A DNA stretch of 64,000 bases from Paeniglutamicibacter sulfureus. GTDB lineage: Bacteria > Actinomycetota > Actinomycetes > Actinomycetales > Micrococcaceae. This document shows positions 1,012 to 16,248 of this stretch, one piece after another (position 1 is the stretch's first letter; each line of letters opens with the position of its first letter). The position numbers and the translations under genes are program-made. The notes under the pieces are model-generated. The model was given only the letters and a program-made list of their open reading frames with translations, did no database searches and had not been told where the DNA came from. The DNA lies in assembly GCF_030512175.1 (NCBI RefSeq), contig NZ_JAULBL010000002.1:1238149-1302148 (forward strand). The letters run 5' to 3'.

Positions 1012-1070
1012 ATGGAACCAGCCGACGGGCGTCCAGGAATTTGGGGTACGAGGGCAGTTCAAGCCGGACC

Positions 1071-1146
1071 GGCATCCCTTCGCTCGGATTATCGAGATCA
1101 GGTTCAACGGGTCTATCTCTCAGCCGCCAGGCGGCACCCCGTGTCG
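1071..1146 (-). promoter_or_regulatory. TPP riboswitch (THI element) aptamer
   Basis: The minus strand carries the conserved THI-box order. GGGGTGCC comes first, then GGCTGAGA (CTGAGA at 1123-1118), then CCGTTGAACCTGATCTCG (TTGAACCTGAT at 1107-1097), then the GATAATCCGAGCGAAGGGA end. These are the pyrimidine- and pyrophosphate-sensor segments of the thiamin pyrophosphate aptamer. The element starts about 165 nt upstream of the SDR start and lies in the 306-nt gap between the SDR gene and divergent tex. I see no intrinsic terminator between aptamer and start codon, so control is probably translational. Confidence 0.95.
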
Positions 1147-1284
1147 AGTCCTGTGGCCAACGTAGCACCGGTACGGGGCAATCCCCGAATCAAGGGCAAG
1201 GACGGAGGCGACACACGCCAGGCGTCGCCGGTCGGTGTCCGCGGGCAGTGCTACGGATGCGGCAAACTAGTGTGGGTGAGCCAG

Positions 1285-10032: not shown

Positions 10033-10115
10033 CCAGTGACTCCTCGCAATTGGCAACAGGTCCACTCTATGCAATGGCGCAGGGCGGATACCCGAAATAA
10101 CCTCTTAGCAAAAAG

Positions 10116-10126
10116 GTTAGTCTAAC
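10116..10126. promoter_or_regulatory. Small palindrome in the divergent AI-2E / M15 promoter region
   Basis: GTTAGTCTAAC is a perfect 5-1-5 inverted repeat in an AT-rich patch about 84 bp from one start and 66 bp from the other. It could be an operator or part of a promoter; no regulator is assigned. Confidence 0.3.
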
Positions 10127-10191
10127 AATGTACTAGTGGGCTTGGAGTGCCACTCATTCAACTCGCAAGAAATTAATTCCCCGGGGGATCA

Positions 10192-11508
10192 ATGAAGCAC
10201 ATGACCACTACAGACGGTGCAATGCCCGTCAATCGCGCAGGGACGGCACTGCTGCTGGGCACGGCGATTGCCCTTGCTCTCGCCGCCCTGAACCCGGTGC
10301 AGGCACAGGCGGCCCCGCAGGCGGTGCCGCATGTCGCGGCGGCGCAGACCGGTCCATCCGCATACATCGCGCAACCCGAAAGCATGTTTCGCGCAGGAGT
10401 CGCGAGGGTATTGCAAACCACCGCGAACCTGAACCTGCGCGCACCGCCTTCCACATCGGGCAAGAAGCTGAAGGTCGTGCCCAAGGGCACGCGGTTGACG
10501 GTGACGGCAACCAGATCCGGATGGAGCCAGGTACGCCATGCCGGACAGACAGGTTGGGTTTCCAGCACCTACCTACGCTCCATTCCCAAGGCCGTGAAAC
10601 AAGGCGACCTCGGCAAGACCACTGCCCGGCTGACGTTGCGGCAAAAGGCAAGCACCGCATCCAAAGCGCTGGCCACTGTGCCCAAGGGCGGCATCTACGC
10701 CGTCAAGAAGGTCTCCGGCGGACATGCCCAGATCACCAGCCGGGGAAAATCAGGGTGGATCCAAGGAAAACACCTCAAGATCGTCGCCAAAAAACCCGGT
10801 CGGGAAATCTACATCGACCAGAAGTACACGTCCAACCGTGCGGGTCTCACCGACAGGTATTGGACAAAGGTCTCCGGTGGCGACCTCTATGAAAGCGTGA
10901 ACGGGAAAAAGCGCATCGGTGACATCCCCCGGAATTCCGTGGTGTACCGGGACATGAAGATGGAAAAAACCGCCGGATCGGTCAAGGGCTGGATCTTCGT
11001 GCGGACGCAGGGGATGAGCGGATGGATGAAAACCAGCCAGCTTGCCCGCACCTCGACCGCCTCTACGAAACCAAAGAAGTATTCGGCTAGGCAAGTCCTG
11101 GCGCAGAAGAACGGCAGGGTCCCCGAGAAGATGCTCGTGGCGATCCCGTGGGACAAGGAAAAGACGCTCATTGCCGCGCCGGCCCTCAAGGACCTGAACC
11201 GACTCAACGCAGCGTTCAAGAAAAAGTTCGGACGCAATCTCGATGTCGACCTGGCATACCGGACTCGTGCCACGCAGGACGCGTACTGGGTGGAGTTGGG
11301 TCCGTACGTCGCGGCACGTCCGGGAACCTCCAACCACGGTTGGGGGACGGCCATCGATGTGCCCGAAACCTATGACTATTCCTTCCGAGGCAAGTACTAC
11401 AAATGGCTGAAGGCGAACTCCAAGAAGTACAACTGGGTGCACCGAAAGATCCTGGAGGAGGGATCGCCCTACGCCGAGGCCTGGCACTTCGACTACGTGG
11501 GGCGCTGA
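10192..11508 (+). CDS. Secreted SH3b-containing M15B (VanY-type) D-Ala-D-Ala carboxypeptidase
   Basis: 438 residues. A signal peptide (TALLLGTAIALALAALNPVQAQA) ends near residue 40. Two SH3b repeats cover about 75-200 (TTANLNLRAPPSTSG and TTARLTLRQKAST), followed by two more degenerate SH3-like units. The C-terminal VanY domain has the zinc ligands His382 and Asp389 in SNHGWGTAIDV and His432 in EAWHFDYVG. It should trim the terminal D-Ala of peptidoglycan stem peptides outside the cell. ATG 10192 is preceded by GGGGGATCA. The shared SH3b architecture with the two genes at 5-8.6 kb suggests a local family that grew by domain shuffling. Confidence 0.9.
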   Translation: MKHMTTTDGAMPVNRAGTALLLGTAIALALAALNPVQAQAAPQAVPHVAAAQTGPSAYIAQPESMFRAGVARVLQTTANLNLRAPPSTSGKKLKVVPKGTRLTVTATRSGWSQVRHAGQTGWVSSTYLRSIPKAVKQGDLGKTTARLTLRQKASTASKALATVPKGGIYAVKKVSGGHAQITSRGKSGWIQGKHLKIVAKKPGREIYIDQKYTSNRAGLTDRYWTKVSGGDLYESVNGKKRIGDIPRNSVVYRDMKMEKTAGSVKGWIFVRTQGMSGWMKTSQLARTSTASTKPKKYSARQVLAQKNGRVPEKMLVAIPWDKEKTLIAAPALKDLNRLNAAFKKKFGRNLDVDLAYRTRATQDAYWVELGPYVAARPGTSNHGWGTAIDVPETYDYSFRGKYYKWLKANSKKYNWVHRKILEEGSPYAEAWHFDYVGR

Positions 11509-14315: not shown

Positions 14316-14493
14316 GGTGGTGATGTTCTCCTGGAAATTGGGGATGAAATCTCGCGGAAGCTGCATCGGCTCCCTCTTATCCATTCTTGTCGCAAGGTGC
14401 CGCAAACGTCCACGGCATCGGGAGCTGGGCGCGGCGCGGTTCGGGGGGAATCTGGCAGTGCAATGCGTTCCCGTGTGCCCGGCAGTTAAAAGC

Positions 14494-14571
14494 GAAGAAC
14501 CGGCCGTGACGGCTAAGGAGGTGAAACTCCGCCGCGACCGGTTCTTCTGATCACTCGCACCTTGAGAAGGT
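14494..14571 (-). ncRNA. Leader element A: two-hairpin structured element of unknown class
   Basis: On the minus strand a short hairpin (ACCTT-CTC-AAGGT, 14571-14559) is followed by GCGAGTGAT. A long hairpin comes next, whose ends GAAGAACCGG (14547-14538) and CCGGTTCTTC (14503-14494) pair over 10 bp, followed by GCTTTTAA. A second copy (element B) lies 430 bp away with the same order and a shared 13-mer AGGTGCGAGTGAT. A 13-codon frame from GTG (14554) to TAG (14513) starts in the linker and runs inside the long hairpin. It lies 180 nt upstream of the aldo/keto reductase. The transcribed strand is inferred from the neighbouring genes. Confidence 0.55.
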
Positions 14572-14633
14572 AGCTTCAGCGTATTTGGAGTAACTGGGTG
14601 ATTGCTGGTGATTTGTCGATAGTCGGCCGTGAG

Positions 14634-14780
14634 TCAGTAGTTGGAGGGTGGATCCGAGGCCGGAAACGATTCGTCTTCCCATTCCTCGACCAGCGCTTCG
14701 TCGTGCGCGCTGGCCACATGCTCTGGTTCTGCGGCAGTTTCTTCTTCTACCTCTTCGTCGCCGGTTGGTTGTTCAGTCAT
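14634..14780 (-). CDS. 48-residue acidic protein with SFPASDPPS motif
   Basis: A short gene read on the minus strand from ATG 14780 to TGA 14634, with a good AAGGAG site eight nt upstream. The product begins MTEQPTGDEEVEEETAAEP and ends EEWEDESFPASDPPSNY. Nearly 40% of residues are acidic and there is no membrane segment or signal peptide. The C-terminal E-x-S/T-FPASDPP-S/A motif recurs in very small proteins of unknown function across several bacterial phyla (from memory; not checked here), which argues that this is a real gene. It lies alone between thiolase and the aldo/keto reductase, flanked by the two leader elements; element B is 141 nt upstream. Function unknown. Confidence 0.8.
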   Translation of the reverse strand: MTEQPTGDEEVEEETAAEPEHVASAHDEALVEEWEDESFPASDPPSNY

Positions 14781-14920
14781 CTCGCGTACTCCTTGATCCG
14801 TAGAACGTGTCTCCCCGAACTTGCGGCGCCCGGTACCTTCAGTTTGGTCCGAAGTGCCGGAGTTGTCGAGGGCGGTGGCTTCCAGGGGTCGTGGTTGCGG
14901 ACATCCTGCATTAAATGGTT

Positions 14921-14997
14921 GAGCACCGATCGGAAGGCTAGGGGGAATTTGCCTTGTGCCCGACCGGTGCTCTCATCACTCGCACCTCCATGAGGTG
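14921..14997 (-). ncRNA. Leader element B: second copy of the two-hairpin element
   Basis: On the minus strand: a short hairpin CACCTC-ATG-GAGGTG (14997-14983), then GCGAGTGAT, then a long hairpin closed by GAGCACCG (14972-14965) with CGGTGCTC (14928-14921). A 13-codon frame GTG (14979) to TAG (14938) has the same length and position as in element A. Its ribosome site GGAGGT lies in the 3' arm of the short hairpin. The element is 141 nt upstream of the 48-residue gene and 64 nt past the thiolase stop. Part of the long hairpin differs from A, so the shape rather than the sequence is kept. Confidence 0.55.
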
Positions 14998-15060
14998 ATT
15001 AAGACTCTAGGGAAGCAACCTTTGCACCAGCTGTATACCGCCGGGTAACAACATGTGAAA

Positions 15061-16248
15061 TCAGCGTCGCAGGATCAGGGCATCACCCTGGCCGCCGCCT
15101 CCACACAGGGATACCACCCCCGTGCCGGAACCGCGCCGCGCCAGTTCCATGGCCTGGTGCAGGACCAGTCGCGCGCCGGAAGCACCCACGGGATGCCCCA
15201 GCGCAATGGCCCCGCCTTCCAGGTTGATCTTGGCGGGATCCACGCCGAGGTCTTTCGCCGATTGCAGGACAACCGACGCGAAGGCCTCATTGATTTCAAT
15301 CAGGTCCAGCTCCGCGACTCCCATTCCCTCCTTGGCCAGGGCGGCGAGAATCGATGTGCTGGGCTGGGAATGCAATTGTCCGTCCGGGCCGGCCGTCTGT
15401 CCGTGGGCGCCGATCTCGCAGTGCCATGTCAGGCCTGCCCGACGGGCGGCGCCCTTGGAGGCAACCACCACGGCTGCGGCACCGTCCGAAAGCGGCGAGG
15501 AAGAACCCGCCGTAATGGTGGCGGCGGGGTCGGTGGAGAAAGCCGGACGCAGTGCGGCAAGCTGTTCTTCCGTGGTGTCAGCGCGAACGCCCTCGTCGGT
15601 GGAAACGATGATCTCGCCCCCGCGCCGCTGCGGGATGGCCACTGGCGCGATCTCGGCATCGAGGTGCGCGCGCGCAGCCGCAGCGCGCTGGTGCGACCTG
15701 GCGGCAAAGGCGTCTTGGGCGGCGCGCGAAATCCCCAGCTTGGCAGTGCCGCTCTCGGTGGCCGAGCCCATCAGCTCGCCGCTGAACGGATCGGCCAACG
15801 CGTCGTGGTTCAGGGAATCCTCCAACGGCCGGTCGCCGATGGCCAACGGTGTGCGCATGCCGCGGACCAGGTGCGGGGCATTGGACATCGACTCCTGTCC
15901 GGCGGCGACGATGAAATCGGCCTCGCCGGCGCGGATCATGCGGGCTGCGTCGATGACGGCGGTGAGCCCCGACAGGCAGAGCTTGTTGATCGTCACCGTG
16001 GGGACCTCCCAGCCGATGCCGGCCTTCAGCGCGGCCTGGCGGGCCGGGCCCTGGCCGGTGCCCGCCAGGATGACCTGGCCCATGATGACGTGGTTGACCT
16101 GGGCGGCCTGCACCCCGCTGCGCTCCAGTGCCGAGGAAATTGCGTGGGCGCCTAGCTCGGTGGCTGACAACGCGGAGACGGCCCCGCGGAACTTTCCAAA
16201 GGGCGTACGTGCACCCCCGACAATCACGGGAGTCAGGTCGTCATTCAT
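15061..16248 (-). CDS. Acetyl-CoA C-acetyltransferase (thiolase)
   Basis: 395 residues, a complete degradative/biosynthetic thiolase. The nucleophile Cys is in TINKLCLSGLTAVIDA, the catalytic His in GHPVGASGAR and the second Cys near the end in SLCGGGGQGDA. It condenses two acetyl-CoA to acetoacetyl-CoA or cleaves beta-ketoacyl-CoA in the cytoplasm. ATG 16248 has AAAGGAA upstream and gives the family start (DDLTPVIVGGARTPFGKFRG). It is divergent from the alpha/beta hydrolase gene with only 52 bp between the starts, so their promoters must be close or overlapping. Confidence 0.95.
   Translation of the reverse strand: MNDDLTPVIVGGARTPFGKFRGAVSALSATELGAHAISSALERSGVQAAQVNHVIMGQVILAGTGQGPARQAALKAGIGWEVPTVTINKLCLSGLTAVIDAARMIRAGEADFIVAAGQESMSNAPHLVRGMRTPLAIGDRPLEDSLNHDALADPFSGELMGSATESGTAKLGISRAAQDAFAARSHQRAAAARAHLDAEIAPVAIPQRRGGEIIVSTDEGVRADTTEEQLAALRPAFSTDPAATITAGSSSPLSDGAAAVVVASKGAARRAGLTWHCEIGAHGQTAGPDGQLHSQPSTSILAALAKEGMGVAELDLIEINEAFASVVLQSAKDLGVDPAKINLEGGAIALGHPVGASGARLVLHQAMELARRGSGTGVVSLCGGGGQGDALILRR

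Follow-up and report, generated by a model that had tools for sequence, protein, structure and literature searches.

The actinobacterial 6C RNA (B11, RF01066) is a short RNA defined by two hairpins, each of which carries a C-rich loop. The loops of B11 pair with ribosome-binding sites (PMC10470900). In the alphaproteobacterial alpha-r14 (cuckoo) RNAs, e.g., NfeR1, anti-Shine-Dalgarno motifs stand unpaired in hairpins whose stems are highly different in sequence, with CCUCCUCCC in each of three hairpins (PMC10746234). Scr3202 of Streptomyces (RF02833) is another RNA of two hairpins with C-rich loops. Mcr7 of M. tuberculosis is a non-coding RNA that depends on the OmpR-family regulator PhoP (PMC4038636); the present RNAs are likened to it by description, and the regulator considered for them below is a candidate.

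The window analysed here, i.e., the whole stretch of 64,000 nucleotides from Paeniglutamicibacter sulfureus, contains on its minus strand two elements, A and B, which by sequence comparison are two copies of an uncatalogued multicopy structured RNA family. The family resembles 6C in being short and having C-rich loops. However, 6C has such loops in both hairpins, whereas in A and B the loop of the 5' hairpin is 3 nt long and contains no C run, and the family differs further in its tiny near-invariant 5' hairpin, the conserved linker next to it and the presence of several copies per genome. No 6C match was found at the gathering score in the window and 18 family loci, nor at E ≤ 10 on 14450-15050, and four 601-bp 6C-like stretches lack GGTGCGAGTGA; 6C was rejected as the same family. 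6C-like RNAs occur elsewhere in 4 of 41 Micrococcaceae genomes, one of them above the cut-off. At 6C-like loci from four Micrococcaceae genomes of two genera (L213-L216), an extra C run with complementary-looking arms lies just upstream of the matched part, which suggests that the 6C-like RNA there is longer than the Rfam model. Compared with the cuckoo RNAs, the family usually has one C-rich loop per RNA, another 5' module and another phylum as its host; A and B have CCUCCUU or a C run in one loop rather than CCUCCUCCC in three hairpins, and membership was rejected as well. Scr3202 aligns to copy A over its full length but below threshold (19.5 bits vs. a gathering score of 52 bits), and its model matches in none of 41 Micrococcaceae genomes, the control genomes giving no match either. 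If the function proposed below holds, the elements would work like 6C/B11 and the anti-Shine-Dalgarno sRNAs without being members of either.

The first-pass annotation of this DNA recognised no known riboswitch class in the elements. This agrees with Rfam 15, which gave no gathering-score match at the elements in the window and the 18 family loci; the matches obtained there are TPP riboswitches elsewhere. One of these lies at 1058-1151 (-) of the window.

Copies A and B and the spread of the family

The same annotation had described a shared order of a small ACCT...AGGT hairpin, an identical 13-mer and a long hairpin on the minus strand, and both sequence matching and folding confirm it for A and B (Table 1). 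The 13-mer AGGTGCGAGTGAT is found exactly at 14562-14550 (-) and 14987-14975 (-), and these are the only sites in the window at up to two mismatches; 40 of 100 shuffles reach two matches too. The predicted folds have energies of -41 kcal/mol (z -3.58) for A and -40 kcal/mol (z -3.61) for B. Both elements begin 63-64 nt downstream of the stop codon of a same-strand gene. Added here to the earlier description are two more genomic copies, a promoter-like sequence before each copy and a C-rich loop region.

Table 1. Predicted parts of copies A and B and the gene between them (positions in the window). Both copies are training sequences of model R1, so their R1 bit scores are self-matches.
Feature	Position	Strand	Basis
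Copy B upstream region, aligned to 11-bp comb (TTCACA ... ACAG ... GCAAAG), probable response-regulator box	15010..15061	-	comb and weight matrix
Copy B -10 hexamer TAGAGT	15004..15009	-	TANNNT position in family
Copy B small RNA, predicted transcript, type I	14911..14997	-	model R1, 97.2 bits (self-match), and fold
Copy B 5' mini-hairpin ACCTCATGGAGGT	14984..14996	-	fold
Copy B conserved linker GCGAGTGAT	14975..14983	-	sequence match
Copy B long hairpin	14921..14972	-	fold and compensatory changes in family
Copy B apical loop AAAUUCCCCCUA, possible seed	14939..14950	-	hairpin survey
48-residue acidic protein gene, between both sRNA genes; conserved neighbour, outside the RNA	14634..14780	-	
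Copy A upstream region, aligned to 11-bp comb	14584..14635	-	comb and weight matrix
Copy A -10 hexamer TACGCT	14578..14583	-	TANNNT position in family
Copy A small RNA, predicted transcript, type II	14486..14571	-	model R1, 86.2 bits (self-match), and fold
Copy A 5' mini-hairpin ACCTTCTCAAGGT	14559..14571	-	fold
Copy A conserved linker GCGAGTGAT	14550..14558	-	sequence match
Copy A long hairpin	14494..14547	-	fold and compensatory changes in family
Copy A decamer UCACCUCCUU in the loop region, identical to a segment of the 16S rRNA 3' tail (anti-Shine-Dalgarno)	14515..14524	-	partly paired in MFE fold

The 4.55-Mb genome contains four exact occurrences of AGGTGCGAGTGAT, with ~0.14 expected from plain base counting. 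The additional copies, C and D (L001 and L002), lie 0.38-0.39 Mb from A/B and have their parts in identical order; all four copies begin 63-85 nt past the stop codon of a same-strand gene. Copy C is flanked by convergent genes, aldehyde dehydrogenase-like and serine protease-like as named from their reading frames, and therefore cannot be a leader.

A covariance model built on these four copies (R1) gave 69 matches in the genomes of the genus, with 3-6 matches in each of the 15 genomes. Searching Micrococcaceae genomes with R1 (stricter filters, E ≤ 0.01) yielded matches in 126 of 245 genomes and 26 of 32 genera; a covariance model, such a search and a test of covariation had been proposed with the first-pass annotation, and they produced both the further copies and the compensatory stem pairs described below. 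The broader covariance model R2 was run over 396 genomes of the order with stricter filters at E ≤ 0.001, under which weak matches may be lost. It matched in 26 genomes, every one in Micrococcaceae, left nine other Micrococcaceae genomes without a match and had none in the 361 genomes of other families of the order (by subtraction, at the same E-value). A pattern scan of named genomes returned at least 118 stretches. Among the matches listed, all but three carry names that we take to belong to Micrococcaceae (Paeniglutamicibacter, Glutamicibacter, Arthrobacter, Nesterenkonia, Zhihengliuella, Micrococcus, Kocuria, Citricoccus, and others), the three odd ones being MAGs labelled Acidobacteria (L095), Anaerolineae (L154) and Saprospiraceae (L196). 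By arithmetic, ~3.7 chance occurrences of the pattern are expected in a full pass through that collection. L095, in which two copies are preceded by comb-like sequence, may be a wrongly binned Micrococcaceae contig.

In 14 of the 15 genus genomes two copies stand 396-559 bp apart, the exception (G011) having its pair at 334 bp. Tandem arrays of three sRNA copies, with 148-408 nt from start to start, were seen at L067 (2820-3228), L077 (2940-3614) and L139 (48-471); in the L067 and L077 arrays, every copy is preceded by a TAnnnT of its own.

Of 65 model matches, 58 were kept; six others were echoes on the reverse strand and one was truncated at the end of its locus. The model was also given 80 of the at least 118 loci and, separately, 66 chosen sources. 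Finally, 219 distinct copies were gathered by the 5' core pattern; the two without TANNNT were removed and the rest were thinned at 75% identity to 128 nonredundant copies. Since the 5' core was the collecting pattern, its invariance among the 219 partly reflects the way they were chosen; the pattern does not extend to promoter, loop, frame or neighbours. Both sets take in related species, L154 being retained among the 128.

Promoter-like layout and a candidate regulator

Each copy carries its own promoter-like sequence, which ends at the small hairpin. The hexamer TANNNT begins at -14 to -12 before this hairpin in 217 of 219 copies. Further upstream, 16 control windows each 5 nt wide were compared: 15 of them contain it in 0-8 copies and the remaining one (-30 to -26) in 24. 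From this layout, transcription would start near 14997 (B) and 14571 (A), ~7 nt past the hexamer, where the hairpin begins. When the 128 nonredundant copies are aligned on the hexamer, CAG occurs 220 times at -46, -35, -24 and -13, as compared with 1-10 hits if this comb is slid by 1-8 bp. All four sites are exact in 4 copies, three in 11, two in 66, one in 39 and none in 8, so that the 7-bp direct repeats with a 4-bp spacer (11-bp phase) exist as a family average, with a mean upstream unit TTCnCAGs and an 11-bp period. A weight matrix trained without the copies of the P. sulfureus genome ranks the promoters of B (37.6 bits) and A (20.1 bits) first and second in the window, the best unrelated site scoring 10.1 bits. 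This site, at 10069 (-), belongs to a region at ~10040-10190, ahead of a 438-residue frame at 10192-11508 (+), which also holds the imperfect palindrome CTAACCT...AGGTTA and, at 10137 (+), a site scoring 7.3 bits.

Boxes of this geometry are known for response regulators. The PhoP box consists of 7-bp direct repeats with a 4-bp spacer, namely TCACAGC-N4-TCACAGC in M. tuberculosis, where three or four repeats are bound tighter than two, and GTTCACC-N4-GTTCACC in S. coelicolor (PMC4832192); 7-bp repeats with a 4-bp spacer are also given for the MtrA box (PMC11215152). The comb upstream of the elements is probably an OmpR/PhoB-type response-regulator box.

The PF00486 DNA-binding domain is present in 14 proteins of the genome. 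A six-frame look at these proteins revealed no exact PhoP NVxESYxxY helix, with 5 of the 14 giving no helix readout. The OmpR-family protein L199 (G000:C1:921962-922189) has the helix VWEYDFNGDASIVESYISYLRRKI, seen as SIVESYISYLRRKI and ending ESYISYLRRKI. Aligned on ESY, it keeps 9 of the 12 PhoP contacts listed in PMC4832192 (W203, F207, E215, S216, Y217, S219, Y220, R222 and R223) and differs at position 204, at 212 (S instead of N) and at 213 (I instead of V); of the six base-contacting residues listed there, two differ. L199 is the best candidate activator in this genome, a lead rather than proof.

Long hairpin, loops and possible targets

The predicted RNA of ~86 nt consists of the near-invariant 5' hairpin, the GCGAGUGAU linker and a hairpin that often has a C-rich loop. 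In 95 aligned matches (94 distinct), two-sided changes occur at all 11 modelled pairs of the long stem. They amount to 277 cells as compared with 54.8 ± 8.2 in shuffles, none of 500 shuffles reaching as many, and the number of pairs with such changes is equalled by one shuffle of 500. Paired cells make up 98.8% vs. 33-48% when the partners are slid, with a similar result for a 65-row alignment; these alignments were fitted to the model and hence lean toward it, but the effect is far above any slide. The earlier view that structure may matter more than the peptide is supported by these compensatory changes. In the small 5' hairpin three of four pairs are invariant, and with so little variation covariation neither supports nor refutes it. 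The U runs past the long stem are short, which makes termination there uncertain.

Two kinds of loop can be distinguished. Type I loops contain UUCCCCCA-like runs; type II loop regions contain CCUCC, mostly as CCUCCUU. CCUCC is found in the loop region of all 14 nonredundant copies with an ACCTTC-type 5' hairpin, as compared with 9 of the 114 others. The loop region of copy A shares the 10 nt of UCACCUCCUU with the 16S rRNA 3' tail, which was found twice in the genome as GGATCACCTCCTTTCT.

If a stem of at least 16 bp is required, 90 of 128 copies show a C-rich run in its apical loop vs. 82 of 512 shuffled sequences, this rule having been chosen after the other counting rules had been seen. With an 8-bp stem, the figures are 100/128 and 245 or 256/512; further counts are 70/128 (one hairpin per copy), 60/128 and, under a bulge-free rule, 52/128 (18% in shuffles). 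The 28 copies without a C-rich loop by the 8-bp rule belong to mixed genera and include copy A, which fails because part of its anti-Shine-Dalgarno run is paired. Among 26 listed copies whose first hairpin is not C-rich, 11 have an extra hairpin ahead of a C-loop hairpin, and these all come from Arthrobacter-named loci; some others have plain short loops. In a comparison covering 76 of 89 called genes, pairing of the A and B loops is better at start regions than in gene interiors (p 7e-4 and 0.036), yet no better than that of shuffled loops; the loop of D beats shuffled loops but not gene interiors, and that of C shows neither contrast.

Proposed function of the family

Sequence comparison supports that the copies exist, that they share a promoter-like layout and a long stem, that C-rich loops are enriched among them and that neither the neighbouring gene nor the reading frame is fixed. 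The likely explanation is that A and B are sibling sRNA genes, controlled by a response regulator, each with its own promoter and a C-rich loop that masks ribosome-binding sites in trans. From the features above we infer that the genes are transcribed, where the transcript starts and ends, which regulator acts, which messages are targeted and repressed, and what the 5' handle does. An OmpR/PhoB-type response regulator, for which L199 is a candidate, would bind the 11-bp-phased TTCnCAG-like units, which would stand in for the -35 box, and activate the TAnnnT promoter. Transcription would begin at the small 5' hairpin and run for ~86 nt, with the long hairpin also serving as its 3' end. Pairing of the C-rich loop (type I, UUCCCCCA-like; type II, CCUCCUU) with G-rich ribosome-binding sites would then block initiation; such masking is proposed by analogy with B11/6C and NfeR1. 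The near-invariant 5' hairpin and the GCGAGUGAU linker may be a handle common to all copies, which would stabilise the RNA or be bound by a shared partner. The finding of L199 weighs in favour of the sRNA reading, and the failure of copy A under the loop rule weighs against it.

A cis-acting leader of the downstream gene (riboswitch or attenuator), as first suggested, is improbable. It is true that A and B both lie ahead of a same-strand gene, A ending ~128 nt before the aldo/keto reductase ATG at 14366 and B 141 nt before the 48-residue gene (the annotated spacing of 140-180 nt is right for B and not for A), and that for one copy alone a promoter plus leader would look identical. However, among the 125 copies with a called downstream gene, this gene lies on the same strand in 58 and on the opposite one in 67 (56 and 60 if 10 copies overlapping a called gene are left out; the gene calls come from a codon-usage script and are approximate), three of the 128 copies being without a called gene. 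Furthermore, 28 of 128 copies, C included, are located between convergent genes, and same-strand downstream distances are scattered from 3 to 958 nt, with one of 4098 nt in the doubtful L154. On the upstream side, a same-strand gene is at least 50 nt away in all 64 copies that have one and 63-98 nt away in 38 of them, about the room a promoter needs. Together with the promoter-like sequence of each copy, these counts speak against the leader: of the proposed cis-regulatory RNA family, the structured RNA family is supported and the cis-regulation is not. Still less probable is a small ORF or leader peptide translated from the GTG behind the AGGT site. The observation that GTG follows AGGT by four bases and opens 13 codons up to TAG is correct as a reading of A and B, AGGT-N4-GTG resembles a start region, and in 124 of 128 copies GTGA is followed by T. 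Yet the frame is not conserved, having 13 codons in 6 of 128 copies, no stop within ~53 codons in 40 and a stop inside the hairpin in 34, and the changes in the stem compensate one another.

That the copies are mostly intergenic, palindromic and repeated within genomes would also fit a dispersed mobile palindrome (REP or MITE-like) devoid of RNA function, an idea hardly credible in view of the small number of copies per genus genome, the regular distance within the pair, the promoter layout preserved across genera and the compensatory stem changes. A more serious alternative, to which we give a minor share of the probability, accepts an autonomous sRNA but takes the long hairpin mainly for a terminator, the working part being the 5' module (ACCU hairpin and GCGAGUGAU), which would bind, e.g., a protein or a common target. 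The 5' module is indeed the most conserved part, and the 3' hairpins vary in number and sequence, as illustrated by the extra hairpin of the Arthrobacter-named copies and the plain short loops of others. Nevertheless, the copies were gathered by that very module, C-rich loops recur on very different stems more often than in shuffles, and the two types of 5' hairpin go together with the two types of loop, all of which speaks against this alternative.

The 48-residue acidic protein ends ...EEWEDESFPASDPPSNY and has no Pfam or NCBIfam family match. A frame with the FPASDPP tail was found at 9 of 10 genus loci checked (two of which overlap) as well as in L045, L047 and L049, and all of these carry sRNA copies. 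An RNA family of this kind was not found in the titles or abstract openings returned by searches of open-access papers. Four intergenic sRNAs are reported for Arthrobacter oxidans KQ11 (PMC6696678), one of which could be a member of the family described here. We rate the family as a new one among RNAs of a familiar sort, unusual in its near-invariant 5' module and its promoter layout.

Micrococcaceae are mostly soil bacteria, and to our knowledge sRNA regulation in them seems little described. Tentatively, the family may represent a lineage-specific regulon of Micrococcaceae acting post-transcriptionally, in which one regulator would drive sibling sRNAs whose 5' module docks an RNA-binding partner and whose C-rich or anti-Shine-Dalgarno loop is swappable from copy to copy. 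As far as we know, Hfq is lacking in these bacteria, and if this regulon exists, the 5' module would take the place that an Hfq-binding module has elsewhere. With its several copies, a promoter layout that can be read, two types of loop (one of which copies the 16S tail) and a near-invariant 5' module, the family leads to three testable questions: which regulator drives it, whether ribosome-binding sites are masked by the loops, and what the binding partner of the 5' module is.
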